Below, piece by piece: positions 39,973 to 62,141 of a DNA stretch of 64,000 nucleotides (positions are counted from its first letter, which is position 1; each line of letters opens with the position of its first letter). A model generated the notes under the pieces. The model did not search any database and was not told the origin of the DNA. It saw only the letters and a program-made list of their open reading frames with translations. A program made the position numbers and the translations under genes. Source of the stretch: Actinomycetota bacterium (GTDB lineage: Bacteria; Actinomycetota; Thermoleophilia; Solirubrobacterales; Solirubrobacteraceae). The stretch covers positions 992,001-1,056,000 of the forward strand of contig VAXW01000005.1 in the NCBI GenBank assembly GCA_005884115.1, written 5' to 3'.

Positions 39973-40009
39973 GCGGGCGCTGGGCCCCCGCGAGGGGTCC
40001 CGCGCCCGC
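39973..40009 (+). terminator. Long GC hairpin after the lipase gene
   Basis: A 16-base stem (39973-39988 with 39994-40009), one mismatch and one wobble pair, 5-base loop, 16 bases after the lipase stop. No T-run follows, so this is a rho-independent-like structure of the GC-rich type. Confidence 0.5.
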
Positions 40010-40160
40010 ACGTGGATCGTTCACGCCGAGAGGGGCGACGGCGGCCTGACCGACGCTCGGCGCCGTACGCAAAAGCGGTCGCACAGCCTGCCGCACCAGC
40101 TATGACTCGCCGCCGGTCGCGTTGCTCGCTCCTCCGTCGCGATGCACGTAAGTCCGTCTC

Positions 40161-41705
40161 TTGCAAGAATGTCTGATCGTGGGAGGGGAGAGGCAGACGC
40201 GCTTTACCAGGCGTACGCTGATTGGTTCAGCGACTGCCGGCGCTGCGGCGGCCGCGCTCCCGCGCGTCGCGCGTGCGGAAGGACCGGAAAAGTCGTCGAG
40301 CTCGTCCCTTGCGAGCCTGTCCGTTCCGAAAACGGCCGATGTCGTCGTCGTCGGTGGGGGCCTGGCGGGCTTGAGCGCCGCCCGCGCGATCGCCCGCGCA
40401 GGTCGTTCGGTGGTCGTGCTCGAGGCTCGCGATCGGGTTGGCGGGCGCACCTGGAATCGGCCGATCACGGGCGGCTCCTACATCGACGCCGGCGCCGAGT
40501 TCGTGGGGCCCACCCAGGATCGAATCAAGGCCCTGGCGCAGGCGGTCGGGGTCGAAACCTTCCCGACCTACAACAGCGGCAGCAACGTCTATTGGAAGGA
40601 TGGAAAACGCGAAACCTACGCCGCGAGTGGCCCCACCGGCATCGCGCCGCCGGATCCGGCGTACCTGCCGGACATCGCGCAGATCGTCCAGAAGCTCAAC
40701 ACGATGGCGACGGAAATCGACGTGGAGGCCCCGTGGAAAGCCAAAGAAGCTGTCGAATGGGACAGCCAGACCTTCTACACGTGGCTGAAGGCCAACGAGG
40801 TCAACCCGGACTTCATGCGCCTCGCGTCGACCGCGACCGATGCCATCTTCGGGCAGGAGCCGCGGGATCTGTCGCTGCTCTACGCCGTCTTCTACATCGC
40901 CGCCTCCGGGAACGAAACAAATCAGGGGACCTTCGAACGCAACTTCCAAACCGCCGAAGGGGCCCAGCAGGACCGCTTCGTCGGCGGCAGTCAGCTGATT
41001 TCGATCAGGGTTGCGGGCGAACTTGGTACTAGCGTTGCCTTGAAAGCGCCCGTCCAGCGCATTGTCCAGAATGCCAAAGGCGTCAAAGTCGTAGCCAAGG
41101 GCGGCCGCGTCTCCGCGAAGCAGGTGATCGTGGCGGTTCCCCCGGCCCTGGCCGCTCGCATCGAATACGAACCGCTGCTGCCGGCCCTGCGCGACCAGTT
41201 CACCCAGCGCGCGCCCATGGGCTCCTATGCGAAGGTCGACGCCGTCTACGAACGACCTTTTTGGCGAGAAGAAGGTCTCACCGGCCAGACGGTGAGCGTG
41301 AATGGGCCGGTGAGGGTGACGTTCGACAGCACGCCCAACGAGGGCAGTCCCGGAGTTCTCCTCGGCTTCATCGGCGGCACCGACGCCCGCGGGTGGTATG
41401 GGCTGTCCGCCGAACAGCGCCGCCAGGCCGTGCTGGACAACCTCGCCAACTACTTTGGCGCGCAAGCACGCAACCCGCTCGAATACGTCGAGAACCGGTG
41501 GGCGGATGAACGCTTTAGCCGGGGCGATCCGGTCGCCGGGCTGCCGCCGGGCGTGCTGCTCGACTTCGGCACCGCTCTGCGGGCGCCCGTGGGGCGCATC
41601 CACTGGGCGGGAACCGAGACCTCGGACTTCTGGGTCGGTTATATGGACGGCGCCGTGCGCTCAGGCGAACGGGCAGCCCAGGAAGTTCTAGCCGAGCTCC
41701 CGTAG
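40161..41705 (+). CDS. Tat-exported flavin monoamine oxidase
   Basis: 514 residues. Twin-arginine signal FTRRTLIGSATAGAAAAALP (about 15-38), FAD-binding VVVVGGGLAGLSAARAIARAG with the following EARDRVGGRTW, and the C-terminal GRIHWAGTETSDFWVGYMDGAVRSGERAA, hallmarks of the MAO/LAAO/polyamine oxidase family. It oxidises an amine with O2, releasing aldehyde, ammonia and H2O2, outside the membrane. The start is TTG 40161 or GTG 40179. GAA-rich codon use matches the upstream lipase. Confidence 0.9.
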   Translation: MQECLIVGGERQTRFTRRTLIGSATAGAAAAALPRVARAEGPEKSSSSSLASLSVPKTADVVVVGGGLAGLSAARAIARAGRSVVVLEARDRVGGRTWNRPITGGSYIDAGAEFVGPTQDRIKALAQAVGVETFPTYNSGSNVYWKDGKRETYAASGPTGIAPPDPAYLPDIAQIVQKLNTMATEIDVEAPWKAKEAVEWDSQTFYTWLKANEVNPDFMRLASTATDAIFGQEPRDLSLLYAVFYIAASGNETNQGTFERNFQTAEGAQQDRFVGGSQLISIRVAGELGTSVALKAPVQRIVQNAKGVKVVAKGGRVSAKQVIVAVPPALAARIEYEPLLPALRDQFTQRAPMGSYAKVDAVYERPFWREEGLTGQTVSVNGPVRVTFDSTPNEGSPGVLLGFIGGTDARGWYGLSAEQRRQAVLDNLANYFGAQARNPLEYVENRWADERFSRGDPVAGLPPGVLLDFGTALRAPVGRIHWAGTETSDFWVGYMDGAVRSGERAAQEVLAELP

Positions 41706-41849
41706 AGAGAAGGCCCTCAACCTCATCCGTGCGGCGTTGATACGGGCGGGTCGTGGCCATCGAGGACCGATGATGGGGTCCTGACCCCATTCCAACACGG
41801 TCGGGTACGTGGAAGCCTCCTCAGCATGAACTACGACCAGGGAGGACTG

Positions 41850-42605
41850 ATGCTTACCTCGATCGGACGCACCAGGAGGCGAAGTAGCGATCGCAACGGC
41901 GCCACGGATGCGCCGCCACAGCAGATCCACCTGCTGGTGGTGGACGATCATCCAGCCGTGCGGCTCGGACTGCTGCACTTGCTCGAGGCGCAGCACGATT
42001 TCAGCGTTGACGCCGTGGGCATCAATGCCCAAAGTGCCGTTGCTGAGGCAGAGGCCAAGCGCATAGACGTGGCCGTCGTCGACTATCAGCTCGGTGGGCG
42101 AAACGGTTTGTGGGTCTGCCGTCGGCTAAAGCAGCTACCAGAGTCGCCACGTGTGATCATCTTCTCGGCCTTTGCCAACAATCATCTGGCAGCGTGCTGC
42201 GCCGTCGCCGAGGCCGATGCAGTGCTCAACAAGGGAGTGCTCGGCTCGGAGCTGTGCGATGCGGTCCGCTCGGTGGCACGCGGCCGGCGACTGCTGCCGA
42301 GGGTCCCGCAGCCGCTGGCCGACATGTTGCGCCGCAGGCTCGGCGAGCGTGAGCAGATGCTTTTCGGGATGCTGCTTGCGGGCATACCGCGAGCCGAGAT
42401 CGGCCGGACCGTAGGCATGTCGGTTCGCGAGATCGAATCGCGCGAGGACGCGATGCTCCGCACGCTCGAGGTTTTGCCCGGCGAGCTATCCGCTTCGAAT
42501 CTGGCCGGAGACCGCGGCGGCCTTGACAGGCCGATCTCCGCGCGGCGCACGTTCGACCGCCTTGCGGATCGCCGCGCCGGCCGCACGAAGTCCCTGCCGA
42601 CCTGA
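41850..42605 (+). CDS. NarL-like response regulator with divergent C-terminal HTH
   Basis: 251 residues. Receiver domain from residue 26: IHLLVVDDHPAVRLGLLHLL, phospho-acceptor D78 in VAVVDYQLGGRNG, S in IIFSAFANN and K in LNKGVLG. The C-terminal part GEREQMLFGMLLAGIPRAEIGRTVGMSVREIESRE is a degenerate LuxR-type HTH, then a 60-residue basic tail. ATG 41850 has GGGAGGA 5 bases upstream; ATG 41826 is in frame too. First gene of a signalling cluster with a kinase and second regulator downstream. Confidence 0.8.
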   Translation: MLTSIGRTRRRSSDRNGATDAPPQQIHLLVVDDHPAVRLGLLHLLEAQHDFSVDAVGINAQSAVAEAEAKRIDVAVVDYQLGGRNGLWVCRRLKQLPESPRVIIFSAFANNHLAACCAVAEADAVLNKGVLGSELCDAVRSVARGRRLLPRVPQPLADMLRRRLGEREQMLFGMLLAGIPRAEIGRTVGMSVREIESREDAMLRTLEVLPGELSASNLAGDRGGLDRPISARRTFDRLADRRAGRTKSLPT

Positions 42606-42618
42606 CACGGAGAAGCTG

Positions 42619-42792
42619 ATGGCAAGGATCATCGTGATAGCCGACGTCCCCGTAGGACCCAACATCGACGCACCGGTGCTGTTAGACGAAGAGGTCAAGC
42701 CCGATCAACTCGCCGACGAGCACGCCTCCCATCAGGTCATCGAGCGTGTCGCGTGGGCCGTCCTCGATGCGCAGGAGGTGGCCAGCACGTGA
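42619..42792 (+). CDS. 57-residue acidic microprotein
   Basis: ATG 42619 with GGAG 6 bases upstream, 13 bases after the response regulator stop. Product: MARIIVIADVPVGPNIDAP, VLLDEEVKPDQLADEHASHQVIERVAWAVLDAQEV. A short beta strand then an acidic helical part. Close spacing to the regulator suggests a functional partner, for example a small modulator. Family not recognised. Confidence 0.6.
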   Translation: MARIIVIADVPVGPNIDAPVLLDEEVKPDQLADEHASHQVIERVAWAVLDAQEVAST

Positions 42793-43015
42793 ACCGAGTG
42801 ACTCGAGGTGAGCGCACGCGTGAGGTGAGGCTTCCCCGCGATCAACGGGTCTTCAGCGAGAGGCGGGAACCACGTGTCGGCGAGCGTCTCGAGCATCGTC
42901 GGCCCGCCACCAAAACGCATGGCCAGCCCGACGCGAGAACCTCGATCCCGGCCGCCGAGTCCTACCTGCGAATCGACCGCGGCTAAGCGCACGAGTCGCG
43001 CAACAATCTCCTGCG

Positions 43016-44050
43016 ATGAGTCGATCGGGATCGGCCAGCGAACGTTCGCAGAGCTACTCAGCACGACGGCGCTACCGCCCGCTGCTTCAGCGCGTCGTGG
43101 CGGCCAATGCCGTGCTCCTGGTCGCGGCATGCATTCTTACGGTGCTCGTTCTAACGCCGCGGAAGTTCTCCTCGTTCGCGGTGGACGAGGCGCTCGTGCT
43201 GGCCGCCGCGCTCGCGTTCGTCACGCTCATCAACGTGGTCGTCGTGCACAGGTTCGTAGCGCCGCTGCAACAGCTCACGGCGCTTGCTCGGCGGGTCGAT
43301 CTGGCAAATCCGGGACAGCGGATCCCCGACGCACGACCTATCTCGGAGGCGGGAGAGCTGGCGGCAACGTTCAACGAGATGCTCGCGCGGCTGGAGCACG
43401 AGCAGCGCGAGAGCACCCGCCGGGTACTCGCGGCACACGAGTCCGAGCGGCTGCGGATCGCGCAAGAGCTTCACGACGAGGTTGGTCAGGCCCTAACCGC
43501 CGTGCTCCTCCAGCTGAGCCGGGTGCAGGAGCGCCTGCCGGCTGAGCTTCGCGACGATCTGAACGAAGCGCAAGACGCGACGCGCGGGAGCCTCGAGGAC
43601 GTCAGACGCATCGCCACCGATCTTCGGCCCGAGATGCTCGAGGATCTGGGACTAGCCAGCGCGCTAGCCGCATTGAGCGACGGTTTCGCACGGCGCGCGG
43701 GAGTCCGCGTTGATCGACAGATTCAAACTCCGCTGCCGCAGATCGGAAGCGAAGCTGAGCTCGTGGTGTATCGGATAGCCCAAGAGGCCCTGACGAACGT
43801 TGCCCGTCATGCAGGGTCAGATAGCGCGGAGTTGACTGTAGCGGCGGACACAGATCAGCTCACGTTCACCGTTCGAGACTACGGCCGCGGCCTTCCGAAC
43901 GGGCGCGCGCTCGACGGGAACGGGATACGCGGGATGCGCGAGCGAGCAGTTCTGATCGGGGCCGACCTTCGAATCGGACGATGCAGGGACGGCGCCGGAA
44001 CAGAACTTCGGGTTGCGCTACCGCTGGAGGACGCCCCGTGCAGCGACTGA
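43016..44050 (+). CDS. NarL-type membrane histidine kinase (HisKA_3)
   Basis: 344 residues. Two TM segments near the N terminus (about 29-46 and 57-78), almost no extracytoplasmic loop, HAMP (VAPLQQLTALARRVDLANPGQRI), then the HisKA_3 motif ERLRIAQELHDEVGQALTAVLLQLSR with H153, and HATPase_c IAQEALTNVARHAG, VRDYGRG, GIRGMRERA. Probably senses a membrane or intracellular cue. The regulator gene starts within its last codons. Confidence 0.92.
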   Translation: MSRSGSASERSQSYSARRRYRPLLQRVVAANAVLLVAACILTVLVLTPRKFSSFAVDEALVLAAALAFVTLINVVVVHRFVAPLQQLTALARRVDLANPGQRIPDARPISEAGELAATFNEMLARLEHEQRESTRRVLAAHESERLRIAQELHDEVGQALTAVLLQLSRVQERLPAELRDDLNEAQDATRGSLEDVRRIATDLRPEMLEDLGLASALAALSDGFARRAGVRVDRQIQTPLPQIGSEAELVVYRIAQEALTNVARHAGSDSAELTVAADTDQLTFTVRDYGRGLPNGRALDGNGIRGMRERAVLIGADLRIGRCRDGAGTELRVALPLEDAPCSD

Positions 44051-44691
44051 CGACGAGGATCCTTATCGCCGATGACCACGGTTTGGTGCGACGCGGGCTT
44101 CGGCTGATCCTGGACGCCCAGCCGGATTTGGAAGTGGTCGCTGAGGCCGGCGACGGCGCCGAGGCCGTGAAGCTCGCGTTGTGCGCCGAGATCGACCTGG
44201 CGATCCTAGATATCTCGATGCCCCGAATGACCGGGCTTCAAGCCGCGAGGGAGCTTCGACAGCGACGCCCCGACCTGCGCGTGCTCGTCCTTTCGATGCA
44301 CGAGAGCGAGCACTACCTCTACGAGGCGCTCAGGGCGGGGGCCTCAGGCTACGTTGTCAAGAAGGTTGCGGACCGCGACCTCGTGGAGGCCTGCCGCGCG
44401 ACCATGCGGGGAGAGCCGTTTCTCTATCCGGGAGCAGTCACCGCGCTGATCACCGCCTACCTGCAAGGTGTGCGCAATGGCCAGGAGCCTCGAGATCTTC
44501 TTACCCCGCGCGAGACCGAAGTCATCAAGCTCGTCGCCGAGAGCTACACCAATCGACAGATCGCGGATGCGCTCACGATCAGTGAGAAGACGGTCGATCG
44601 CCACCGCGCGAACATTCTGGAGAAGCTCGGCATGCGCGACCGCGTCGAACTCACCCGCTACGCGATTCGGAACGGGCTCATCGAAGCGTAA
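44038..44691 (+). CDS. NarL/LuxR-family response regulator
   Basis: 217 residues. Receiver TRILIADDHGLVRRGLRLIL with D58 in LAILDISMPRMTG, S in VLVLSMHES and K in YVVKKVAD. C-terminal LuxR HTH: LLTPRETEVIKLVAESYTNRQIADALTISEKTVDRHRANILEKLGMRDRVELTRYAIRNGLI. GTG 44038 overlaps the kinase end by 13 bases and has GGAGG upstream, so kinase and regulator form a cognate pair. Ends 33 bases before the att-like tRNA fragment. Confidence 0.93.
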   Translation: MQRLTTRILIADDHGLVRRGLRLILDAQPDLEVVAEAGDGAEAVKLALCAEIDLAILDISMPRMTGLQAARELRQRRPDLRVLVLSMHESEHYLYEALRAGASGYVVKKVADRDLVEACRATMRGEPFLYPGAVTALITAYLQGVRNGQEPRDLLTPRETEVIKLVAESYTNRQIADALTISEKTVDRHRANILEKLGMRDRVELTRYAIRNGLIEA

Positions 44692-44723
44692 CTTCGGTCG
44701 GTGCCCGCGCAGCAGCGCCAGTA

Positions 44724-44775
44724 CGCCCGAGTGGACTCGAACCACAACCCGGAATACTCCGGAGGAGGCCCTCAA
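44724..44775 (-). repeat. att-like copy of the tRNA-Leu 3' half
   Basis: Matches 50218-50269 with three mismatches. It spans from next to the tRNA 3' end back to the anticodon loop and stops there. Too short to be a working tRNA. Confidence 0.8.
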
Positions 44776-44898
44776 GCTCCTGGCCGAGCTCCCAGGTGTC
44801 GGCGGCTCGAACGCTAGCGACGCCGATTGCAACCAGGCCGGTGCTGCAGTCGGGGCCATCGGGCGACTCCCTCGCTAACGCGCTAGGCGAGGACGTCG

Positions 44899-44922
44899 CC
44901 TCGGGCGTGCGCACGCCCGAGG
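44899..44922 (-). terminator. Perfect 24-bp palindrome after DUF2294 copy A
   Basis: cctcgggcgtgc followed by its exact complement, 15 bases past the stop of the minus-strand DUF2294 gene. It would fold into a hairpin of about 10 bp with a 4-base loop. Position suggests transcription termination; no T-run. Confidence 0.5.
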
Positions 44923-44936
44923 GCATCTCAGGCGCT

Positions 44937-45359
44937 CTACTCGGGCTCGGTGATCTCGACCGCGCCGAAGCCCTCGAGCGGGCCATCGACGAAGAAGATC
45001 TCCATCGTGATGTCGGGCTCGACGTGGGCTTGGCTGAGGAACGCCAGGACTTTGCGGCCTGTGAGCTCCTCGATCGTCCCCTTGTACCTCTTGGCCATGA
45101 CGCGTTGGAAGTCCTCACGCATGGCGATCACGCGATCGGGCTCACCGCTATCCATGATCGTCTGCTCGAGCGGGGTGAAGCCGCTGCCGCGCATGACGAC
45201 GACGATGATGTCATCGAGCGCGTAAGTCTTGGCCTTCATCGGGCCGCGCCCATAATGCTCGCGGAGGATGCCGACGATGCTCGTCGAGATCGTCGCTAGC
45301 AGATGTCCGCCGGCGAGAGGCGTGTTGCTGACATCAGGTTCCGTGTCCGGGTCAAGCAC
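44937..45359 (-). CDS. DUF2294 (MpsC-family) protein, copy A
   Basis: 140 residues: STSIVGILREHYGRGPMKAKTYALDDIIVVVMRGSGFTPLEQTIMDSGEPDRVIAMREDFQRVMAKRYKGTIEELTGRKVLAFLSQAHVEPDITMEIFFVD. This is the PF10057 family (DUF2294, named MpsC after a Na+-linked membrane-potential system; its role here is unproven). Soluble, no TM. GTG 45359 is chosen because it gives exactly the length and N-terminal register of copy B. Most changes from copy B are in the first 18 residues. Confidence 0.82.
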   Translation of the reverse strand: MLDPDTEPDVSNTPLAGGHLLATISTSIVGILREHYGRGPMKAKTYALDDIIVVVMRGSGFTPLEQTIMDSGEPDRVIAMREDFQRVMAKRYKGTIEELTGRKVLAFLSQAHVEPDITMEIFFVDGPLEGFGAVEITEPE

Positions 45360-45527
45360 TGGTGGTCCCGCAGAGCTCAGGTGGCCCGACACGCGACGGG
45401 CCACCTCCCAAGGGCTACCCACCGTCGTCACCGCCGCTACTCGTCGGCACGGAGGTAGACGATCGTGCCCTTGATCCCCCGCTGTACGTGTGCGGCGTCC
45501 GACGAACGATCCCTGATCCGTGCAACC

Positions 45528-45681
45528 CGATGGGCTCCTTGGTGCAGAAAACCAACCGTGAAACGGACCAGAGCTAGCGCAGCCAGCGTGTGACCGCGAA
45601 ACTCCTTCCGCATCTGAGGCGCAACCCCAAGCACGGCCGATGGCCGCGCACTTGGGACCGCTGTTGCGCGATCGTAGCGCA
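45528..45681 (-). repeat. Inverted repeat, arm A
   Basis: Read on the minus strand, this segment matches 47357-47508 on the plus strand. The first 68 bases are about 75% identical without gaps, and the rest is alignable with small indels. A minus-strand frame here (45437-45682, 81 codons) contains VLGVAPQMRKEFRGHTLAA, and arm B reads VLGIAPQTAERIRGHMLAA, so the repeat may derive from a coding sequence. Confidence 0.65.
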
Positions 45682-45944
45682 CGCACTGGCGGTCGGTCCA
45701 GTGCTCCCCTGACTTTTTGCCGCTCAGTCCGAATCTTGGCAGTTGGTGGTCGGAGGCGATCGCCTCTGTGGCCGGTCGAGTTTCTCGAAGGAGCGGGTCG
45801 GCCTCGCGTGGGTGAGAGGACAGAAGGCCGGCCTGGGCTCAATCGCGTGGCGCTGCTGCGAGCAGTGACAACGGTCTGGTGGATGCGGCGGCCGCGTGGC
45901 CGCGGCCGGAGGCGACGCCGGATGGCGGAAGGCTCAAGCACCCA

Positions 45945-46313
45945 TCAGGCTACGCGCCGCTCATGGGGGGTCGCGCTCCACGCGCGGCCCGTCTCAGCGG
46001 AGCTGAGCATCGCCACGAGGACGTGGCGCTGTCGGTCGGTCATCGACCCGACGGTCTTCTTCTCCGACATGGGCAGCTCAGCGAGGAGCTTGCGGCAGCG
46101 GGTCTGACCCCAGCGGCGCTGGCTCACAAGCAGGTCAGCCACCGCCATGCTGTCCGCCTCGAAGGGGCAGTGAAGGATCACCTCGGCAGCACCAACCTCG
46201 CCGAACGCCACCCTGCGCTTGAGCTGGGCGCGGGCCAGGCGGACCTTGTTGGCGCGTTCCAGGGCGCGCATGTGCTGTGGGGCAGCAGGGGCTATTGTCG
46301 CTGTCGCGTTCAT
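45945..46313 (-). CDS. mihF: Actinobacterial integration host factor (mIHF) paralogue
   Basis: 122 residues: RALERANKVRLARAQLKRRVAFGEVGAAEVILHCPFEADSMAVADLLVSQRRWGQTRCRKLLAELPMSEKKTVGSMTDRQRHVLVAML, the H2TH-containing fold of mIHF. It bends or coats DNA; the founding member was found as host factor for mycobacteriophage L5 integration. ATG 46313 with GGGAGGA 7 bases upstream. It lies inside the tRNA-bounded island, so it is probably an extra copy. The C-terminal tail (SAETGRAWSATPHERRVA) is longer than usual. Confidence 0.88.
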   Translation of the reverse strand: MNATATIAPAAPQHMRALERANKVRLARAQLKRRVAFGEVGAAEVILHCPFEADSMAVADLLVSQRRWGQTRCRKLLAELPMSEKKTVGSMTDRQRHVLVAMLSSAETGRAWSATPHERRVA

Positions 46314-46788
46314 GTCGCAGTCCTCCCGTTGACGTTGCGGCGCTCCTGCGGCGCGCAACATCCTTGCTTGATTTGACGAGTCCGCGATCGCCATGACTGC
46401 TGAGATCAGCCTGCGAGGGAGTCGCGGCTGGCCCCCCGCCACACCACCTCCCAATGGTGTCCTTGGGGCGAGCCCCGAACGGTCATGCCGAGCCCGCTTC
46501 TGGAGGCTACGCCAGCGCCGGGTGCCCGGTCAACCGCGCGCTCGCGGTTCGTGCGGTGGAAGCGGCGTTTTCCGTCGCAGGCGGACTTGTGAGGAAATGG
46601 ACAAGACCGGAGGCCGACTTGAACGCCCGCCGAGGCCAGCCTGGTTGGCTCGCAGTCGGCGGTGCGGCAGCCGCCGCGAGCGGGGTCCGGTGTGGGACCA
46701 ATGTGCCCGCTCTGATAGTTGCCGTGGCTCGGCGAGGGATTGTCTCTTCTCCCCCGCTCGACCTCGAACTCGGTCGCGTTTGGTCGCT
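46314..46788. other. Island region without a recognisable gene
   Basis: About 475 bases between mIHF and DUF2294 copy B. Several long frames are open on the plus strand, but they are either antisense to copy B or show no domain. I see no RNA gene or transposase remnant. Confidence 0.4.
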
Positions 46789-47211
46789 CTACTCGAGGTC
46801 GGTGAGCTCCAGTGCGCCGAAGCCTTCGAGCGGGCCGTCGACGAAGAAGATCTCCATCGTGATATCGGGCTCGACGTGGGCTTGGCTGAGGAACGCGAGG
46901 ACCTTGCGTCCGGTGAGCTCTTCGATCGTCTCCTCGTAGCGCCTGGCCATCACGCGCTGGAAGTCCTCACGCATGGCGATGACCCGGTCGGGGCGGCCGC
47001 TGTCCATGATCGTCTGCTCGAGCGGCGTGAAGCCGCTGCCGCGCATGACGACCACGATGATGTCGTCGAGCGCGTAGGTCTTCGCCTTCATCGGACCCCG
47101 CCCGTAGTGCTCGCGCAGGATGCCGACGATGCTGGTCGAAATCGCCGCTAGGAGATGTCCCCCGGCGAGCGGGGCGCTGCTGGCGGAGGATTGCGCGTCC
47201 ACTTCGGCCAC
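46789..47211 (-). CDS. DUF2294 (MpsC-family) protein, copy B
   Basis: 140 residues, the same length as copy A, with about 15 changes after residue 18 (for example GEP to GRP, RYKGT to RYEET, AVEITEPE to ALELTDLE). Product of a recent duplication or of two related acquisitions. Start GTG 47211 with CAGGAG very close. The third-codon positions also differ at many sites, so the duplication is not brand new. Function of the family is unsettled. Confidence 0.83.
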   Translation of the reverse strand: MAEVDAQSSASSAPLAGGHLLAAISTSIVGILREHYGRGPMKAKTYALDDIIVVVMRGSGFTPLEQTIMDSGRPDRVIAMREDFQRVMARRYEETIEELTGRKVLAFLSQAHVEPDITMEIFFVDGPLEGFGALELTDLE

Positions 47212-47719
47212 TCCTGGTCCGGTTCGCCCTCCCTGGTCCAGTTCGGCTCACGAGACCCCTACCCGGTGCGCGGGGTTGCGCAAACTCGAAGACAACCACA
47301 AGATTGTCGGACTGAGCGGCATAAGTCTGAGGCAGCGCCGCACCGTTGGCTGGCGCTGCGATATGGTCGCCATACAGCGATCCCACATGCACGGTCACGG
47401 ACTGTGCTCGGGATTGCGCCTCAGACAGCGGAGCGAATTCGCGGTCACATGCTGGCCGCCAAGTTCTGGTTCGTTGCACGGTTGGCGTTTCTGAACGGAG
47501 TCCATCGGTGCAGGGTCAGGATGCCTGGCGCGCTTTGCAAGGTCCCATAGAGGACAGGCTGGCGCTTGGTCGTTCGTCGTGCGCTGCCCATTCGTGCGGG
47601 GGCCTTGCGGTCCTCACTACACGGCGGGCACTTCTTGCGACTGACCGCGTTTGGAATCTGAACGCAGGCACACGCAGAGATACCTCCAACCGCACCAACC
47701 CCAGACGAGGAGGGCCTCA
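47212..47719. other. Island region holding inverted-repeat arm B
   Basis: About 500 bases with no supported gene. It contains arm B of the inverted repeat and a plus-strand frame whose peptide VLGIAPQTAERIRGHMLAA resembles that of arm A. It seems to be a decayed copy of the same sequence. Confidence 0.45.
47357..47508 (+). repeat. Inverted repeat, arm B
   Basis: Plus-strand partner of 45528-45681 (minus). The two arms enclose mIHF and DUF2294 copy B, about 2 kb. In both arms the repeat lies about 150-170 bases beyond the 5' end of a DUF2294 gene. Confidence 0.65.
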
Positions 47720-48013
47720 GTGCCAGCCAAGAAGCTCGTCAAACAACCGCCGCACGGGCCCGCTGCCGCGGAGGGCAACGGCTCACGGCCTCCCACCAAG
47801 TCCTACGCCAGCCGAGCCGAGGCGATCGACCGCCTGGAACGGTTGCGCAGCGTCGTGCCCGTTTTTGCCCAGGAGCTGATGAGCGCCCGTCGTCAAGCGG
47901 CTCAGCTTCGCGCCGAGAATGGCTCGCTCGTCGAGCAGGTGCGCCAGCTGCAGCGAGAGCGTGCCCTGAGCAACGGGTCCGCCCCCCTGCCAGCAGGCAC
48001 AAGCGGGAGATAG
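47720..48013 (+). CDS. Small coiled-coil protein, 97 residues
   Basis: GTG 47720 with GAGGAGGG 6 bases upstream. A basic, Pro-rich N terminus (PAKKLVKQPPHG) leads to SRAEAIDRLERLRSVVPVFAQELMSARRQAAQLRAENGSLVEQVRQLQRERAL, a heptad-like helix with leucines at regular steps, then a Ser/Gly/Pro tail. It probably dimerises; the basic head could touch DNA. No family recognised. The strong ribosome site supports expression. Confidence 0.7.
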   Translation: MPAKKLVKQPPHGPAAAEGNGSRPPTKSYASRAEAIDRLERLRSVVPVFAQELMSARRQAAQLRAENGSLVEQVRQLQRERALSNGSAPLPAGTSGR

Positions 48014-48114
48014 CAATGGGCGCCGCCACGCTGGAGCCCGCTTCCGGGCACCGGGTGGGGCATCTCAACTTGATCGGTGGCGCGCAGACGCGCGCTCGAG
48101 GAAAGGAGACAGCC

Positions 48115-48321
48115 ATGGAGGTCGTAGCGCTCACCACGGACCAGTCGGCGCGCATCGAGGCGCTGCCCGACGACTGCACCATCGTCGGCGTGGAGGATGG
48201 CTGTCCGCTCGTGCGTCAGGGCGGCGGCGCGGTCGCGCTTGTCGACAGCAACGGGCGCCTCGTGCAAGCAGAGCACAGTGTCCGGGCCGTGACGCCGTAC
48301 TTGGAGGTCGCAGCGTCGTAG
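48115..48321 (+). CDS. 68-residue protein of unknown function
   Basis: ATG 48115 with AAAGGAGA 7 bases upstream. Product: MEVVALTTDQSARIEALPDDCTIVGVEDGCPLVRQGGGAVALVDSNGRLVQAEHSVRAVTPYLEVAAS, broken here only by compactness; a small beta-rich domain with no TM. It follows the coiled-coil gene by 101 bases and may be cotranscribed. Family not recognised. Confidence 0.68.
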   Translation: MEVVALTTDQSARIEALPDDCTIVGVEDGCPLVRQGGGAVALVDSNGRLVQAEHSVRAVTPYLEVAAS

Positions 48322-48599
48322 GGCGCGCCTTGGCCGACCGCTCGAACTTCGAGCTCCTATTCGCTTCTGCCGCGGGGCGCCGGTTTCGCAGCCAGGCATC
48401 GAAGAACTTGCCGCAGGTCTCTCTGCGCTGCATGTCTGTCCGCCCCTAGCTTTGGAGACAACTACGCGTTCACGCTCGCGCCGGGGGCGCACCTCCGCCC
48501 GCCGGACTGGCGGTCCTTGACGTATTAGCGCGTGCCACCCCGCGTCTCATTGCGGGGAGATGGGCTTCCAGACTTTCTCGGCATGAACGCAGGCGAACG

Positions 48600-48807
48600 G
48601 CTAGGCCTGACGCTCACTAGCCGTCTGCCGCCCAACCTGAGCCGGAAGCTCGGCAACTGGTTCACCCCGCCGCCAAGCGTCGGCTTCGGCATCAGCTTGT
48701 CGCTCAACAAGCGCCTCTCCTCAGCGAAAACCCGCCGGCTCCTCGGATGGTCTCCAGCTCGCGCGGACATCCTCCAGGACATCGAGTCCGGCTCCTATGT
48801 GCCCTAG
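48600..48807 (+). pseudogene. C-terminal remnant of an extended SDR (epimerase) gene
   Basis: The peptide SLNKRLSSAKTRRLLGWSPARADILQDIESGSY matches the usual last 30 residues of NAD-dependent epimerases (LNxRxSxxKARRELGWxP). There is no Rossmann domain or active site upstream, and the 5' part is unrelated. It is the stump of a gene cut by insertion or deletion inside the island. Confidence 0.5.
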
Positions 48808-49013
48808 CGATCGCCGCGTGCCCAACCATGGCCCGCTCTGCCGAAGGCCTGCTCGAGGATCGCTGTCGTCGCAGTGGCTACCGATCCGCCGTCAGCTGCG
48901 TTCGCGCCCGTATTTGGTCGCGCCCTTATCGCGGGAGATAGCACGGGGACCCAAGCCGGCCCAGCTCGCTCGAGTCTCGCCTCTTGTGTGAACGGTAGAT
49001 CGCGCCGCGCGGC

Positions 49014-50084
49014 CTAGGGATCGCGCCGCCGGTCGCGATCGCGCGAGGGCTGGACGCGCTTCGGCTCGCCGGGCATCTTGGGGTAGTCCGGCGGGTAGGG
49101 CATGTCGCCTTCCCCCTCCGTCTCGTCGCGCTTGTACATGTCGAGCAGCGGCTCGAGCGAGTGGGCGACATCGTCGATGGCGGCGTGGCGATCGCCGAGC
49201 TCTGCGAATCGGGCGGGCATCGTCGCGACAGTGAAGTCCTCGGGCACGACCTGCTCGAGCTCGTCCCAGATCAGCGGAGCCGAGACGGGCGCGCCCGGCT
49301 TGGAGCGCACGCTGTATGCGGATGCGATCGTGCGATCGCGCGCGTTCTGGTTGTAGTCGACGAAGATCCGCTCTCCGCGCTCCTCCTTCCACCACTTCGT
49401 CGTGACCTCACCGGGCAATCGCCGCTCGAGCTCGCGACCGAACGCGATCGCCGCATGTCGGACATCCGTAAACGTCCATCGCGGTTCGACGCGGACGTAG
49501 ATATGCACGCCGCGGCCGCCTGAGGTCTTCGGGAAGCCGACGTACCGCAGCTCGCCCAGCAGCGCGCGCGCCTCGGCGGCGACGCGCACCGCGTCGGCGA
49601 AGTCGGTGCCGGGCTGCGGGTCGAGGTCGATGCGCAGCTCGTCTGGATGGTCGAGATCCTCGTCGCGGACCGGCCAGGGATGGAACGTGATCGTGCCCAT
49701 CTGCGCGGCCCACCCGACTACGGCTATCTCCGTCGGACAGATCTCGTCGGCGGTCCGGCCCGATGGGAACTTAATGGTCGCCGTCTGCACGTAGTCGGGA
49801 GCCCCGCGCGGAACCCGCTTCTGAAAGAACGCGTCGCCGCCGCCTTTGTCCCGCGTCGACAGCACGATCCCCGGGTGCACGCCCTTCGGCCACCGCTCGA
49901 GTGTCGTCGGCCGGCGCCGGAGCGCGCGCATGATCCCCGCCGCGACCGCCAGGTAGTAGTTGACGATGTCTAGCTTCGTGACTGCTTTCGCGCGCCTGCT
50001 CGCAGGGAAGATCACGCGCTCGGGATTCGACACGCGCAGCTCGCGACCGCCGGCGTCGACGGTTGTGTGCTCAGCGGTGGTCAT
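49014..50084 (-). CDS. LigD-type DNA polymerase/primase domain protein
   Basis: 356 residues of the archaeo-eukaryotic primase fold seen in the LigD polymerase domain: ERVIFPASRRAKAVTKLDIVNYYLAVA, TIKFPSGRTADE, the metal pair in RIDLDPQPGTDF, SGGRGVHIYVRVEP and RIFVDYNQNARDRT. It lacks ligase and nuclease domains, so it would work with separate partners in non-homologous end joining, as the stand-alone LigD-Pol proteins do. ATG 50084 is preferred to frames further upstream. It borders the tRNA-Leu end of the island. Confidence 0.88.
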   Translation of the reverse strand: MTTAEHTTVDAGGRELRVSNPERVIFPASRRAKAVTKLDIVNYYLAVAAGIMRALRRRPTTLERWPKGVHPGIVLSTRDKGGGDAFFQKRVPRGAPDYVQTATIKFPSGRTADEICPTEIAVVGWAAQMGTITFHPWPVRDEDLDHPDELRIDLDPQPGTDFADAVRVAAEARALLGELRYVGFPKTSGGRGVHIYVRVEPRWTFTDVRHAAIAFGRELERRLPGEVTTKWWKEERGERIFVDYNQNARDRTIASAYSVRSKPGAPVSAPLIWDELEQVVPEDFTVATMPARFAELGDRHAAIDDVAHSLEPLLDMYKRDETEGEGDMPYPPDYPKMPGEPKRVQPSRDRDRRRDP

Positions 50085-50215
50085 ATTTCGGGGTGGGGAG
50101 GCCCCGCGCTCACCGGTGCATCCTAGGCCCGCGGGTGAGGCAAACCCGACCGAGCGCGATCGCTCGCAAGCGAGCCTTCCTGGAACATATCTGGTTGGGC
50201 GTCCCAACTAGGTGA

Positions 50216-50302
50216 TGCGCCCGAGTGGACTCGAACCACCACCCGGAATACTCCGGACAAGGCCCTCAACCTTGCGCGTCTACCAAATTCCGCCACGGGC
50301 GC
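50216..50302 (-). tRNA. tRNA-Leu (anticodon GAG)
   Basis: On the minus strand: acceptor GCGCCCG pairs with CGGGCGC at the 3' end; anticodon stem CAAGG/CCTTG with loop TTGAGGG (GAG at 50267-50265); a long variable arm (TCCGGAGTATTCCGGG) marks a class II tRNA-Leu; T arm GGTTCGAGTCC. 87 bases, CCA not encoded. Its 3' half is duplicated at 44724-44775. Confidence 0.95.
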
Positions 50303-50408
50303 AGAGGGGCGAGTATAGCCCCGGCCTCCATACGGCCTGAGGCAGATCGCCTGCCCGCGGCTCGCCTCGCGCCGGCACTTGTCTCCGTCCTCATAGCGCG
50401 CTACAGTG

Positions 50409-50422
50409 CGAACACATGTTCG
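50409..50422. promoter_or_regulatory. LexA (SOS) box
   Basis: CGAACACATGTTCG, a perfect CGAAC-N4-GTTCG match to the Gram-positive SOS consensus, 41 bases before the lexA start. LexA would bind it to repress its own gene. Confidence 0.9.
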
Positions 50423-50462
50423 TCCAGTGGCAACCGCAGCCGACCGGGGGAGATGAACAGCG

Positions 50463-51086
50463 ATGGATTTGACCAAACGCCAGCAGGAGATATTCGACTT
50501 CATCCGCAAGTACTCCGCGAAGTACGGCTATCCACCGACGGTCAGGGACATCGGCAAAGCCGTAGGGCTCGCGTCCTCATCGACCGTGCACGCTCATCTC
50601 GCCAACCTCGAGAAGATCGGGCTTCTGCGGCGCGACCCATCCAAGCCACGTGCGATCGAGCTGCTCGACCGCGCCGTCGGTAGCGCGGTTGAAAGCGTGC
50701 GCGGGATCGTGCGCTCGGACGGGCTTCCCGTTCTCGGATCGGTCGCCGCGGGACAACCGATATTGGCGGAGGAGAACATCGAAGACTACGTTTCGGTGCC
50801 CGACATCGCCGGTGGCTCTGAGGGCGAGTACGTGCTGCGCGTGCGCGGCGATTCGATGAAGGACGCCGGGATCCTGGAGGGGGACCTCGTCGTGGTGCAC
50901 TCCCAGGAGACCGCGCGCGACGGTGACCTCGTGGTTGCGCTGCTCGGCGAGGAGGCCACCGTGAAGCGCTTCTACCGCGAGACCGATCACGTGCGCCTGC
51001 AGCCCGAGAACGACGCCATGGAGCCCATTCGCAGCAAGGAGGTCAAGGTCTTGGGGCGCGTCGTCGGGCTGCTGCGGAGCATCTGA
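50463..51086 (+). CDS. lexA: LexA repressor
   Basis: 207 residues. N-terminal wHTH TKRQQEIFDFIRKYSAKYGYPPTVRDIGKAVGLASSSTVHAHLANLEKIGLL; self-cleavage site A96-G97 (VAAGQP); S24 peptidase serine in GDSMKDAGI (S131) and general-base lysine in ATVKRF (K168). It represses SOS genes until RecA filaments trigger self-cleavage. A perfect SOS box lies upstream. GGGGGAG precedes the ATG. Complete. Confidence 0.96.
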   Translation: MDLTKRQQEIFDFIRKYSAKYGYPPTVRDIGKAVGLASSSTVHAHLANLEKIGLLRRDPSKPRAIELLDRAVGSAVESVRGIVRSDGLPVLGSVAAGQPILAEENIEDYVSVPDIAGGSEGEYVLRVRGDSMKDAGILEGDLVVVHSQETARDGDLVVALLGEEATVKRFYRETDHVRLQPENDAMEPIRSKEVKVLGRVVGLLRSI

Positions 51087-51179
51087 GCTGGCGGGGGCGC
51101 GACCGCGCGAACCGTGGCAGCGGCCGTTCGCCGGCTGGCGCTCCTTCACAGCGCAGCAGCCGAGCGCTAACTTGGAGCT

Positions 51180-51505
<326 letters not shown>

Positions 51506-51508
51506 ACG

Positions 51509-51536
51509 GGAAAGCCCCGCTCCGGCGGGGCTTTCC
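51509..51536 (+). terminator. Terminator of rnpB
   Basis: ggaaagccccgc (51509-51520), loop tccg, then the exact complement (51525-51536): a 12-bp stem with a T/C-rich 3' side (ctttcctattt). It follows P1 of RNase P RNA by 4 bases. Confidence 0.85.
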
Positions 51537-51702
51537 TATTTGAGCCCGACGCCCGCACACGAGCGTGCTCGTCGCTGGCGAAGACGTCAGCGGCGTCGCG
51601 CGCATCTGACGCAGCACCTCGCGCAGCGTGCACCTGCGCAGCGCGCGCCTCGCTCACGCAGCGCCGCGCCGCGCACCGGCCTGCACCTGCGCGTCAGCCG
51701 CC

Positions 51703-52128
51703 TCACACCTTCAGATGCGGGAAGTCCGCTTCGACCAGCTCGCGATAGCGCGCGAAGATCGGCCGCGTGATCGGGATCAGCTCGAGCGCCGCCTTGATGT
51801 CGCCACCCGTCTTTATGCGGCGGCGCGCGATCGCAAGCGGCACGTTCTCGCGGCCCTGGAAGTAGCGGTTGGCAGTCTCTGACGACATCGTCATCCGCAC
51901 GCGCGGTGACCAGTCGATCTCGTCCGTCCACTCCCAGTGCAGGTTGGCCTGCTCGTCGCGCTGACCCGCGCGGATGTTCATCACCAGATCGACATCCTCG
52001 AACTCAAACCGCTGCGGCACATCCGCATCGCGCAGCCTCGGTCCCATCTCCGGGTCCTCGCTCATGAGCGTGAACACCCTGTCCATCACATCCCGGAACT
52101 CTCTCGCCGATGAAAACGGGCTAGCCAT
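51703..52128 (-). CDS. SCP2 sterol-binding-domain protein
   Basis: 141 residues: SSAREFRDVMDRVFTLMSEDPEMGPRLRDADVPQRFEFEDVDLVMNIRAG, then WSPRVRMTMSSETANRYFQGRENVPLAIARRRIKTGGDIKAALELIPITRPIF. The late KTGGDIKAAL element is typical of SCP2-like lipid-binding proteins. ATG 52128 with AGAGGAG upstream; the frame extends 46 codons more without similarity. Probably cytoplasmic lipid or hydrophobic-ligand binding. Downstream of a small gene on the same strand. Confidence 0.78.
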   Translation of the reverse strand: MASPFSSAREFRDVMDRVFTLMSEDPEMGPRLRDADVPQRFEFEDVDLVMNIRAGQRDEQANLHWEWTDEIDWSPRVRMTMSSETANRYFQGRENVPLAIARRRIKTGGDIKAALELIPITRPIFARYRELVEADFPHLKV

Positions 52129-52195
52129 AACGCTCCTCTCTTGCTCCTGCACGGCCACCGGCGGTGCCTGCCTGAGCATCCAGCGGGGGCAGCTC

Positions 52196-52444
52196 CTAGT
52201 CGGCGCGGTGCTCTTCGTCGGCCTCGCTGTAGGTGGTCTGCGCCTGCTCCTCCGCGGGGCCCGCATCGTGGATGATGCGAAAAGGCGAGTGTTGATCGGC
52301 GTGCGAGGCGTGCTCGATGAGCTCCCGCTCGCTCAGCTCGAAGCCCTCCGACTGCCCGCCGCCAGCCTCCTCGATCGCCTGGCGCTCTTTGCGACGGCGC
52401 TCAACCAGCTCCAGCAACGGATCCGGCCGAGGCTGCGCGTCCAT
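52196..52444 (-). CDS. 82-residue hypothetical protein
   Basis: MDAQPRPDPLLELVERRRKERQAIEEAGGGQSEGFELSERELIEHASHADQHSPFRIIHDAGPAEE, then an acidic, His-containing tail. Hydrophilic, helical, no TM. It lies between the threonine synthase and SCP2 genes on the same strand, 14 bases after the former, so it is likely in that transcript. A tidy coding frame with plausible composition, but no family I can name. Confidence 0.6.
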   Translation of the reverse strand: MDAQPRPDPLLELVERRRKERQAIEEAGGGQSEGFELSERELIEHASHADQHSPFRIIHDAGPAEEQAQTTYSEADEEHRAD

Positions 52445-52458
52445 GGCGCAGACTCTAC

Positions 52459-53799
52459 CTACCTATGAGCGAGCGCTTCAAGCGCGCGGTCGCGCAAAGC
52501 GGCCGTGCTCTTCAGCTCCTCCAGCGCCTCCAGCATCGCGTCGAGCTCGCACTCGATCTTCGCCGGCCAGGGTTTGTCCGGATGGTCGTCCAGCGTCTTC
52601 AGGCCGTTGCCCGTGATGATCGCCACCACCACCTCATCCGCTCCAAAGCGCCCTTCCGCAGCCATCTTGTGAAGCACCGCCACGGTCGTGCCGCCGGCCG
52701 GCTCCGTCAGCAGGCCCTCCGTTGCCGCTAGCAGGTCGACGCCCGCGAATATCTCCGGGTCGCTTGCGAACCCGCCCGTGCCGCCGCGCTTGAGCACCGC
52801 GTCGATGACCAGGTAGCCATCGCCCGGAGCTCCGATCGCCAGCGAGTGCGCCGCTGTCTCCGGGGTGATCGGGCGGATCTCCGCCTCCTCGGCCAGAATC
52901 GCCGCAGAAATCGGGTTGCAGCCGCTCGGCTGCGCGATGTGGATGCGTGTCGAGTCCGTCTCGGCGAGGCCCAGCAGCTGCAGCTCGCCGAGCCCCTTGT
53001 GCAGGCGCGAGGACAGCGTGCCGCCCGCGGCTGCCGTGATGATGTGCTCCGGAGCCTTCCACTCGAGCTGCTCGACGATCTCGAACGCCTCCGTCTTCGC
53101 GCCCTCGGCGTAGAACGGCCGCAGAGTGATGTTCGCGAACTCCATGCCCGTGCTTTCCGCCACTTCGCGACAGCGGCGGTTGGCTTCGTCGTAGTTGCCC
53201 TCCACCTGGCACACCTTCGCGCCCATCGCTGCGCACGCTCGCGCCTTCGTGTCCTCGAGGCGGTTCGGGTAGAACACGTACGCATCCGCGCCCGCCTTCG
53301 CCGCGTAGGAGGCGACCGCGGTGCCCACGTTGCCAGTGGACACACATCCCATTTCGGTTCGCCCCAGCTCCAGCAACCGCGCCACCGACATGGCCACGAC
53401 GCGATCCTTGTAGGAGAGGCTCGGGCGCGAGGTCGAGTCGTCCTTGAGGTACAAGTTTGCGATCCCCAGCTCCGCACCAAGGCGATCGGCGCGGATCAGC
53501 GGCGTATACCCCCCGTGGGAACCCACGCGCGCCTGCGCCGAGGCGTCGACGATCGGGAGCAGCTCCTCGAAGCGCCAAATGTTCCTCGCGCGCGTCTCGC
53601 GCGGCACCTCCTCGAAGCGCCGTGCCGCCAGCTCGTAGTCATAGGTGATGTCCAGTCCCTTGCCGCACTGCGGGCACGCGAATACGCTCTCCTCAAGCGC
53701 GTAGCTCAGATCGCAACGGTGGCACCGCAGGCCGGTCGCGCACGAGCGCGTCCGCTTGCGAGACCCCCTCGCGAGGCTCTGAGTGGTCGTCGTGCTCAT
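52459..53799 (-). CDS. thrC: Threonine synthase, with N-terminal zinc ribbon
   Basis: 446 residues. N-terminal zinc ribbon CHRC (26-29) and CPQC (42-45), then the PLP fold: GYTPLIRADRLGAELGIANLYLKDDSTSRPSLSYKDRVV with Schiff-base K131, VSTGNVGTAVASYAAKAG, and ITAAAGGTLSSRL for phosphate binding. It converts O-phosphohomoserine to threonine. ATG 53799 overlaps the stop of the LeuRS-like gene by 4 bases (ATGA). The zinc ribbon, seen in many actinobacterial and archaeal enzymes, is of unknown role. Confidence 0.88.
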   Translation of the reverse strand: MSTTTTQSLARGSRKRTRSCATGLRCHRCDLSYALEESVFACPQCGKGLDITYDYELAARRFEEVPRETRARNIWRFEELLPIVDASAQARVGSHGGYTPLIRADRLGAELGIANLYLKDDSTSRPSLSYKDRVVAMSVARLLELGRTEMGCVSTGNVGTAVASYAAKAGADAYVFYPNRLEDTKARACAAMGAKVCQVEGNYDEANRRCREVAESTGMEFANITLRPFYAEGAKTEAFEIVEQLEWKAPEHIITAAAGGTLSSRLHKGLGELQLLGLAETDSTRIHIAQPSGCNPISAAILAEEAEIRPITPETAAHSLAIGAPGDGYLVIDAVLKRGGTGGFASDPEIFAGVDLLAATEGLLTEPAGGTTVAVLHKMAAEGRFGADEVVVAIITGNGLKTLDDHPDKPWPAKIECELDAMLEALEELKSTAALRDRALEALAHR

Positions 53800-56081: not shown

Positions 56082-56087
56082 CGCCAA

Positions 56088-56247
56088 TCGAGCATATCCA
56101 AGGGGTTCGCACCCGACCGGCCGTTGCTATGCTCAAAACGAACTTGGCTCCGGCCTTCGACAGCCTCAAAGACACCTCCCGCCGCTCCCCCTTCGGCCCC
56201 GCCACGCGCGGGGCCTTCGCGTCCGCAGGGGCTGCAAGGATCTTGAG
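56088..56247. promoter_or_regulatory. Divergent promoter region of leuS-like and guaB3
   Basis: Contains tatgct (possible -10 for guaB3) after the run ggccgttgc, and a hairpin ggccccgc-N5-gcggggcc in the leader of guaB3. No riboswitch core is recognised. Confidence 0.35.
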
Positions 56248-57441
56248 ATGGAAGTAGAGATCGGGCGCGGAAAGAAGGGGCGTCAGGCCTACGGCTTCGA
56301 CGACATCGCGATCGTGCCCTCGCGGCGCACGCGCGACCCGGACGACATCGATATCTCCTGGAAGCTCGGCCCCTACCAGTTCGAGCTGCCGATGATGGCC
56401 GCCGCCATGGACGGCGTCACCTCGCCCGCCACCGCAGGCATCATCGGCCGCGTCGGAGGGCTCGGGGTGCTCAACCTCGAGGGCATCTTCACGCGCTACG
56501 AGGACGCCGAGGCGCAGCTCGAGCGCATCGCCTCGCTGCCCAAGGAGCTCGCCACGCGCGAGATGCAGGACATCTACCGCGAGCCCATCAAGCCCGAGCT
56601 GATCGCGCAGCGAATCGCCGAGATCAAGGAGCAGAAGGTCGTCGCCGCCGCGTCGCTCACGCCGCAGCGCGTGCTGCGCTACCACGAGATCGCGCTCGAG
56701 GCCGGCCTCGACGTGCTAGTGATCCAGGGCACGGTCGTATCCGGAGAGCACGTCTCCACCGTCTCTGAGCCGCTGAACCTCAAGGAGTTCATCCCCACGC
56801 TCGATGTACCCGTCGTGGTCGGCGGCTGCGCCTCCTACCACACCGGTCTTCACCTCATGCGCACCGGAGCCGCCGGCGTGCTCGTCGGCGTCGGGCCCGG
56901 CGCCGCCTGCACCACGCGAGGCGTGCTCGGGATCGGTGTTCCCCAGGCCACCGCGATCGCCGACGTGGCCCACGCGCGCTCCACACACATGCTCGAGACC
57001 GGCGAGTACTGCCAAGTGATCGCCGACGGCGGCATGCGCAACGGCGGCGACGTCTCCAAGGCGATCGCGCTCGGCGCCGATGCCGTGATGATCGGCAGCC
57101 CGCTCGCGCGCGCCTACGAGGCGCCCGGCCGTGGCTTCCATTGGGGCATGGCCACCTTCCATCCGACGTTGCCGCGCGGCGCTCGCGTGGCCACCGCCCA
57201 GAACGGCAGCCTCGAAGAGATCCTCGTCGGCCCCGCGCGCGAGAACGACGGCACCTTCAACCTCTTCGGCGGGCTGCGCACCTCGATGGCCACCTGCGGG
57301 CACAAGGACCTGGCCGAGTTCAACCGCGCCGAGGTCGTGATCGCGCCCGCCCTGCAGACGGAGGGCAAGGCCCTGCAGCGCGACCAGGGTGTCGGCATGG
57401 GCGCGACCAACGGGAAGGCGGCAGCGCTCGTCAATGACTGA
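56248..57441 (+). CDS. guaB3: GuaB3-type IMP dehydrogenase family protein
   Basis: 397 residues of the IMPDH barrel without CBS domains: [27 protein letters not shown] at the N terminus, [12 protein letters not shown], the active-site loop [18 protein letters not shown] with C221, [30 protein letters not shown]. This is the actinobacterial GuaB3 family, next to guaA here. It makes XMP from IMP, or acts as a related reductase; the exact reaction in GuaB3 proteins is debated. Overlaps the guaA start by 8 bases. Confidence 0.92.
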
Positions 57442-59152: not shown

Positions 59153-59455
59153 CGCGGGAGGCCTGTCCGCTCGATGCGGCTGGCGCCGCATCGCCGGAAG
59201 GACCTCCCGCTTGGCCGAGGGGGCTGGCGCTGATCCGGCGATGATCGGGCGCGCCCGGCGGCCGAGAGAGCTTCGTCTATCACCCTCGCTGATCGTCAGG
59301 CAAGCGCGTCGCGCCTGCCTGCTTCGATCCAGCGCGTCGCCCAACCGATCGACAGCTCGCCGCCGCCGTGTCGGCTACCCGCTTCGGCGCGAGGCGCGCA
59401 GCCGTTTCGCCTATCATGTCCGCTCGCCGCGCTCCCGCGTGGCATTTTTCACGCC
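59153..59455. other. Leader region of the rplM operon
   Basis: About 300 bases with no gene. TATCAT (59412-59417) could be a -10 element 38 bases before rplM, but no good -35 is at the right distance. Many rplM leaders bind L13 for feedback; I cannot identify such a fold by eye. Confidence 0.35.
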
Positions 59456-60789: not shown

Positions 60790-60807
60790 CAGCGCTCGCG
60801 GCGAGCG

Positions 60808-62118: not shown

Positions 62119-62141
62119 TCACCGCTGGTATCTTCGCCTGA

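Follow-up and report, generated by a model that had tools for sequence, protein, structure and literature searches.

In a 64,000-nucleotide stretch of genomic DNA from a member of the Solirubrobacteraceae (the window in what follows), a segment at 44724-50213 is bounded on one side by an intact gene for tRNA-Leu(GAG) and on the other by a displaced copy of the 3′ half of that gene. We consider this segment, with a probability of about 0.78, to be the ruined remains of an integrative element, or of several, inserted at the anticodon loop of tRNA-Leu(GAG). The genome that carries the window (G000; genomes, contigs and loci are cited by handles beginning with G, C and L) comprises 3.14 Mb in 10 contigs and is 87.84% complete. 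The features on which the argument turns are the following.

44724..44778, minus strand: displaced tRNA 3′ half (positions 32-86), a relic att core, 51/55 identical
48323..48442, minus strand: weak, tentative trace of the core-binding region of an IntLeu integrase (see below), about 40 residues, from alignment to IntLeu proteins
50214..50303, minus strand: tRNA-Leu(GAG), intact, the integration target; called by ARAGORN, the sole tRNA found in the window
50463..51086, plus strand: lexA, the constant flank of the tRNA and its neighbour in all GAG loci tested

The displaced tRNA half

Nucleotides 44778-44724 align with positions 32-86 of tRNA-Leu(GAG) in the same orientation, and the BLAST expectation value of the match (E = 5e-17, with the whole genome searched) excludes a chance origin. 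A sequence-only reading of the window had reported a 52-base copy with 49 matches at 44724-44775, oriented like the intact tRNA and starting at the anticodon loop; the alignment bears out each of these statements, the full match extending to 44778 with 51 of 55 bases identical. Nor does the copy belong to a common dispersed repeat, since the genome holds five matches at E ≤ 0.01, namely the intact GAG gene, the window copy, C1:450279-450338 and the genes for tRNA-Leu CAG and TAG. The sequence of its variable arm is the host genome's own and is absent from 17 other tRNAs compared, which argues that the copy probably arose within this lineage. The interior had also been described as gene-poor, in agreement with a coding fraction of 0.56 in 44779-50213 as against 0.79 (1-40000), 0.83 (40001-44723) and 0.89 (50304-63998) elsewhere in the window; these fractions come from a simple gene caller of our own, whose output was supplemented manually by a few genes.

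Immediately outside the copy, a two-component cluster ends at 44691 with RR2. Relatives of this cluster occur in G011 (77% DNA identity) and G022 (71-77%) on contigs that carry neither the GAG tRNA nor a copy of it. The gene after RR2 differs in each relative, so the border just past RR2 is a synteny break, to be read against a genus gene order that is broken in many places. A larger island of 48 kb was considered and rejected: window positions 770-2155 have an 89% relative on G002:C37, beyond two copies, and the remaining genes of that contig have no match in the window or in the 20 kb leftward of it.

Integrases, arms and short segments in related genomes

The gene lexA lies on the 5′ side of tRNA-Leu(GAG) in 17 of 17 loci (15 in the genus, the other two in G035 and G036, which belong to the same family) and in all 10 further records, 4 of which are contigs already in the first set. 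On the 3′ side, gene content varies among genomes, the exception being a tyrosine integrase of the family found after tRNA-Leu, for which we coined the name IntLeu; the contigs of G012 and G022 end less than 0.8 kb past the tRNA and give little information on this side. A search of 24 genus genomes returned 66 matches, comprising 16 full GAG genes, the tRNA-Leu(TAG) gene at C7:863931, 29 partial copies and 20 matches starting at positions 2-8, which were taken as other tRNA-Leu genes (ARAGORN, applied to 5 of the 20, called all of them CAG). Twenty-four of the 29 partial copies, including that of the window, start at position 30-34, in the anticodon loop; they are spread over 13 genomes, and 20 of them extend to position 86-92. 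The remaining five start at position 56-67. Three of the partial copies pass as tRNAs in ARAGORN (Leu for L045 and L119, Thr for L125) despite a match start at 32-34 and a preceding arm of the kind described below.

IntLeu genes follow tRNA-Leu(GAG) at short distance and on the same strand in G003, G010, G013 and G019 (about 60-67% mutual identity), and G035, a member of another genus, has an IntLeu-type integrase shortly after its GAG tRNA, likewise on the same strand (39-45% identity). The genus holds seven full-length IntLeu genes in 6 of 24 genomes, three of the seven following tRNA-Leu(CAG); they are termed full-length and not intact, as stop codons fall within the match in G021, G003:C196 and G019. 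A scan of named genomes yielded 21 loci, 15 of them with at least 45% identity, and in all 15 a tRNA-Leu (GAG in 10, CAG in 5) lies about 140-200 bp upstream. Seven of these 15 repeat the genus genes, and L207 and L208 appear to belong to a single strain; 14 come from Solirubrobacterales, Solirubrobacteraceae or Solirubrobacter and one from Actinomycetes. The other six loci (23-37% identity) neighbour tRNA-Leu(TAA), tRNA-Ser, tRNA-Gln, tRNA-Ala or no tRNA and were not counted. No IntLeu gene was found in the window's own genome at its 87.84% completeness, where the search gave distant integrases only (best E 2e-10, 32%). This genome has a different tyrosine integrase directly after tRNA-Leu(TAG) (L111:8874-10334, G000:C7). 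A phage origin of IntLeu was considered and rejected, the viral contigs giving 51 pattern matches of which none was confirmed as a protein relative; for one exact core pattern these contigs gave no match.

Before most displaced copies stands a conserved sequence some 105 bp long (the right arm), which contains two direct repeats of the GTGACAA type and the motifs GTCCGATGCGTCC / GGACGATCTGGACG. The tRNA-side end of integrase-bearing elements (the left arm) carries an inverted pair of similar sites, of the type TTGTC..GACAA, and we regard both arms as putative integrase-binding sites. Arm profiles were built from 16 of 26 copies and tested on 27 of the 29 partial copies (the 26 and that of the window, with G007:C133 and G018:C2 outside the set), each test withholding the copies of the same genome only. 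In this leave-one-genome-out comparison, 20 of the 26 non-window copies scored 19-97 bits for the right arm, one scored 11, two 6-7 and three none; against 2000 random stretches the right-arm profile, here built from 18 sequences and run on both strands, reached at most 4.8 bits. The shared breakpoint, the presence of IntLeu after the same tRNA and the arms in relatives together establish that the tRNA-Leu(GAG) locus is a genuine attachment site, used repeatedly by related bacteria. The description of the IntLeu family and its arms in this group may be new.

In G013, both end types (on two contigs) carry TGGCAC in place of TGACAA, which hints that the arm sites may change together, an impression gained from few genomes. 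Right-arm matches of 20-66 bits accompanied by no detected tRNA half occur at L062:15945, L041:653-561, L047:173-99, L043:1145 and L061:2886. Candidate arm relics in the window were rejected, the right-arm profile giving at most 4.8 bits and the left-arm profile its best score (10.7 bits) at a terminator-like sequence at 51509-51541, outside the segment. The better-preserved att site of this genome is C1:450279, not the window copy; arm and core there span C1:450170-450335 (L033:15171-15336), with a full right arm of 75.5 bits and a core identical at 57 of 57 positions. ARAGORN finds no tRNA in C1:435000-474527, around this arm-bearing core, and its location could mean that the chromosome was rearranged, that a contig was lost or that the assembly is at fault.

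Each of ten short segments of 0.5-5.4 kb, that of the window included, has a copy at one end and the tRNA or a second copy at the other; long single-contig segments in G010 (56 kb and 22 kb) and G016 (52 kb) lie outside this comparison. None of the ten contains a complete IntLeu, and seven have a right arm at their end. The 2.84-kb segment of G006:C114 retains the left and the right arm, 25-30 codons from the start of the integrase gene and a pair of PIN-type genes, of which Pfam confirms one while the second is 47% like it. In the short segment of G017, some 87 integrase residues survive along with relics of the two arms. A 1.9-kb segment in G002 has a PIN gene and no arm. The G006 and G017 segments are deletion derivatives of the cis-mobilizable element (CIME) kind, their truncated integrases representing half-way decay. 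It is conceivable, if unlikely, that in this genus tRNA-Leu(GAG) is an anchor for arrays of short integrase-less units, in the manner of an integron-like cassette store, and that the window holds a fossil unit. Such units, 0.5 to 5 kb long, many of them ending in their own right arm and tRNA half and some with PIN-type toxin-antitoxin genes, would be added and moved by the IntLeu integrases of visiting elements.

Other recombination genes also lie at this tRNA. In G016:C10 (L035:15277-17685), the frame of a large serine recombinase (Pfam Resolvase and Recombinase) abuts tRNA-Leu(GAG) and runs stop-free through the antisense of the tRNA gene into lexA, and a relative in L062 (G007:C279) likewise overlaps a tRNA fragment. 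The overlap in G016 resembles that of dsiB in the Dehalococcoides report (PMC3146451). In G011, a transposase-like gene follows the GAG tRNA at about 1.3 kb.

Origin of the segment

The process that shaped the segment is most likely of a known kind, an anticodon-class tRNA island that decayed, the segment being rebuilt by later changes. A tyrosine integrase of the IntLeu type would recombine the tRNA 3′ half of the element with that of the host, whereupon the element's copy would restore the tRNA and the original host 3′ half would be displaced to the far end. To judge from the elements of relatives, the integrase and the inverted-site arm would then lie next to the tRNA and the direct-repeat arm before the displaced copy. 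The window segment would have lost both arms and the integrase gene, leaving behind the displaced copy, a possible 40-residue integrase trace and captured or rearranged genes; we infer that this copy derives from an IntLeu-type event. The sequence-only reading had likewise proposed an integrative element, and its core, site-specific integration at the 3′ side of the tRNA, is supported by the IntLeu genes, copies and arms of relatives; the interior, by contrast, is not one clean cargo, as it contains a ppdK fragment, a dispersed module and a second LigD polymerase. Of the two histories then offered, a decayed element is the better fit.

The integrase trace lies on the expected strand. Four of five IntLeu queries align with 48323-48442 over 32-58 residues (E values of 3e-4, 0.020, 0.033 and 0.042), the best at 34.7 bits compared with at most 26.2 in 100 shuffles of the segment, and no frame from 54 sources gives a better profile hit once those recognised on other grounds as an integrase or its relic are set aside. 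These alignments hint at a possible integrase remnant.

Several observations weigh against an origin from an IntLeu element. The trace is short, scores 10.9 bits (E 0.11) with the IntLeu profile and gives no Pfam match, and for coding DNA a comparison with shuffled sequence is an undemanding control. The window copy gives no right-arm hit while the mismatches in its core amount to only 7%; substitution alone would not erase the arm yet spare the core, so that deletion or replacement must be added to the account. The left arm is likewise absent from the tRNA side of the segment, and among the copies of relatives G023b, G007b and G020 are also without an arm match, three others reaching only 6-11 bits. 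Among the genomes compared, none was seen that joins the left flank of the segment to the tRNA. Finally, other recombining DNA is present at the locus, as the serine recombinase of G016 and the transposase-like gene of G011 attest.

A breakpoint that is right yet has no IntLeu arm, and the presence of another recombinase at the locus, the large serine recombinase against the tRNA in G016, favour an alternative that we think quite improbable, in which the island was placed by a different anticodon-class integrase whose arms are invisible to IntLeu profiles. However, the tyrosine integrases found directly after the GAG tRNA are of the IntLeu type only, among the loci searched, and the window gives zero PF00589 hits at E ≤ 0.001, which for genes confirms the earlier statement that no integrase is recognisable. 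The second history offered by the sequence-only reading, a satellite moved by another integrase, finds no support. A CIME-like, integrase-less satellite still movable by the IntLeu of a newly arriving element has its model in the deletion derivatives at relatives' copies, such as that of G006:C114 with both arms in 2.84 kb; the window segment has neither arm, its core carries four mismatches and no IntLeu gene was found in this genome, and we consider such mobility very improbable. Equally hard to credit is an origin without any element, in which the tRNA piece would be end-joining filler DNA or a chance duplication: the copy does lie 76 bp from the ppdK fragment, another gene scrap, and most genomes of the genus carry ligD-type genes and G013 a Ku gene, but chance would need the same end position as 23 other copies, the right orientation and the correct side of the tRNA.

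The favoured reading, a decayed element of anticodon-loop entry, may be set beside systems already described. A scheme for sublocations within tRNA genes was reportedly drawn up by Williams in 2002. Islander (PMC4383910) tabulates 2083 islands with anticodon-centred sites and requires an integrase gene. The window locus resembles Islander class A, as described there, in its displaced 3′ tRNA fragment, direct orientation and anticodon start, and in the tyrosine integrase beside the tRNA of relatives; it differs in that the segment has no integrase gene and only a possible 40-residue trace. According to the report on Dehalococcoides ssrA islands (PMC3146451), 15 of those islands are without an integration module and were suggested to be cis-mobilizable. 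Common to that system and ours are several islands in tandem with 3′ fragments of one RNA gene at their borders, and a conserved motif before the repeats. The Dehalococcoides islands have a serine recombinase where ours has a tyrosine integrase, and their repeat covers 20 bp of the T loop of transfer-messenger RNA (tmRNA), ours about 57 bp from the anticodon loop on. A CIME, as characterized in PMC5704250, occupies an att site, has lost the genes for integration and for transfer, shows tandem accretion and keeps attL and attR. The G006 and G017 segments fit this description, and the window segment shares the loss of the integrase gene; unlike a CIME, it retains the core and no attL/attR arms. 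Compared with IntLeu elements, it has the core, from the tRNA-Leu anticodon loop to the 3′ end, and lacks the right arm before the core and the left arm after the tRNA.

These results point to an enzyme family and an exact site behind a highly variable locus of poorly known soil actinobacteria. The arms are conserved enough for insertions to be mapped from sequence alone, which makes gene gain and loss at the locus testable. For the window itself, the description changes from possible satellite to ruin, which is relevant to any attempt at mobilisation.

Genes inside the segment

Besides the integrase trace, the segment contains the following features.

44855..44929, plus strand: ppdK (pyruvate phosphate dikinase) fragment, 25 codons (75 bp); DNA match and tblastn
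44937..45359, minus strand: MpsC/DUF2294 gene, copy a; PF10057, 68.5 bits
45512..45738, no strand assigned: dispersed repeat, with an inverted copy at 47299-47496 and others elsewhere in this genome
45945..46313, minus strand: gene related to actinobacterial integration host factor (mIHF); NF041260 43.3 bits (cut-off 60) and PF22525 16 bits (cut-off 27), both sub-threshold
46314..46605, minus strand: conserved region upstream of the mIHF-like gene, from sequence conservation among loci
46789..47202, minus strand: MpsC/DUF2294 gene, copy b; PF10057, 68.4 bits
47720..48013, plus strand: open reading frame of 97 amino acids; no family above cut-off
48115..48321, plus strand: open reading frame of 68 amino acids; no family
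49014..50084, minus strand: LigD primase-polymerase gene, second stand-alone copy in the genome; PF21686, 295.8 bits

The ppdK fragment matches eight genus loci at 76-85% DNA identity, each within a long open frame, one of which (L184) contains Pfam PPDK_N and PEP-utilizers; in tblastn the fragment gives E 9e-9 with 80% over 25 residues. The LigD polymerase has its closest relative (85% amino acid identity) in G005:C38, where a ligase gene comes after it, whereas the gene calls place no ligase beside the window gene; the other LigD polymerase copy of this genome is at C7:197535 (56%). A role for the LigD polymerase as the ancestral neighbour of the tRNA was rejected, as other contigs hold the genus-common copy (53-58% amino acid identity) and the surroundings of the 85% relative in G005 are different. 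Positions 48532-48807, without a Pfam match, may be epimerase-like. Conjugation genes were absent from the 10 proteins scanned, no search aimed at such genes having been made.

The duplications seen in the interior by the sequence-only reading are real, the two MpsC/DUF2294 genes being 89% identical over 300 bases. Relatives of the MpsC/DUF2294 and mIHF-like genes occur elsewhere in this genome, in G011, where they are adjacent, and in others. These genes, a module scattered through the genus, account for the duplications and are not confined to the island. The mIHF-like gene and its upstream region (window 45916-46605) align at 74-83% over 615-711 bases in seven of the eight loci compared. 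An RNA element upstream of this gene was considered and rejected, since the conserved region has no Rfam match and its consensus fold an unfavourable covariation term.

Loci L117, L188-L191, L193 and L194 also hold the mIHF-like gene together with some 290 bp upstream of it, and certain genomes have it more than once; most of the eight upstream regions contain a CTTGT..ACAAG palindrome. The repeat at 45512-45738 and 47299-47496 has matches in either orientation close to MpsC/DUF2294 genes, both here and in G011, G012 and G014. At L115:7800-8328 (G000:C1), the end of an MpsC/DUF2294 gene with 94% DNA identity to copy b adjoins the 3′ end of tRNA-Arg(ACG).

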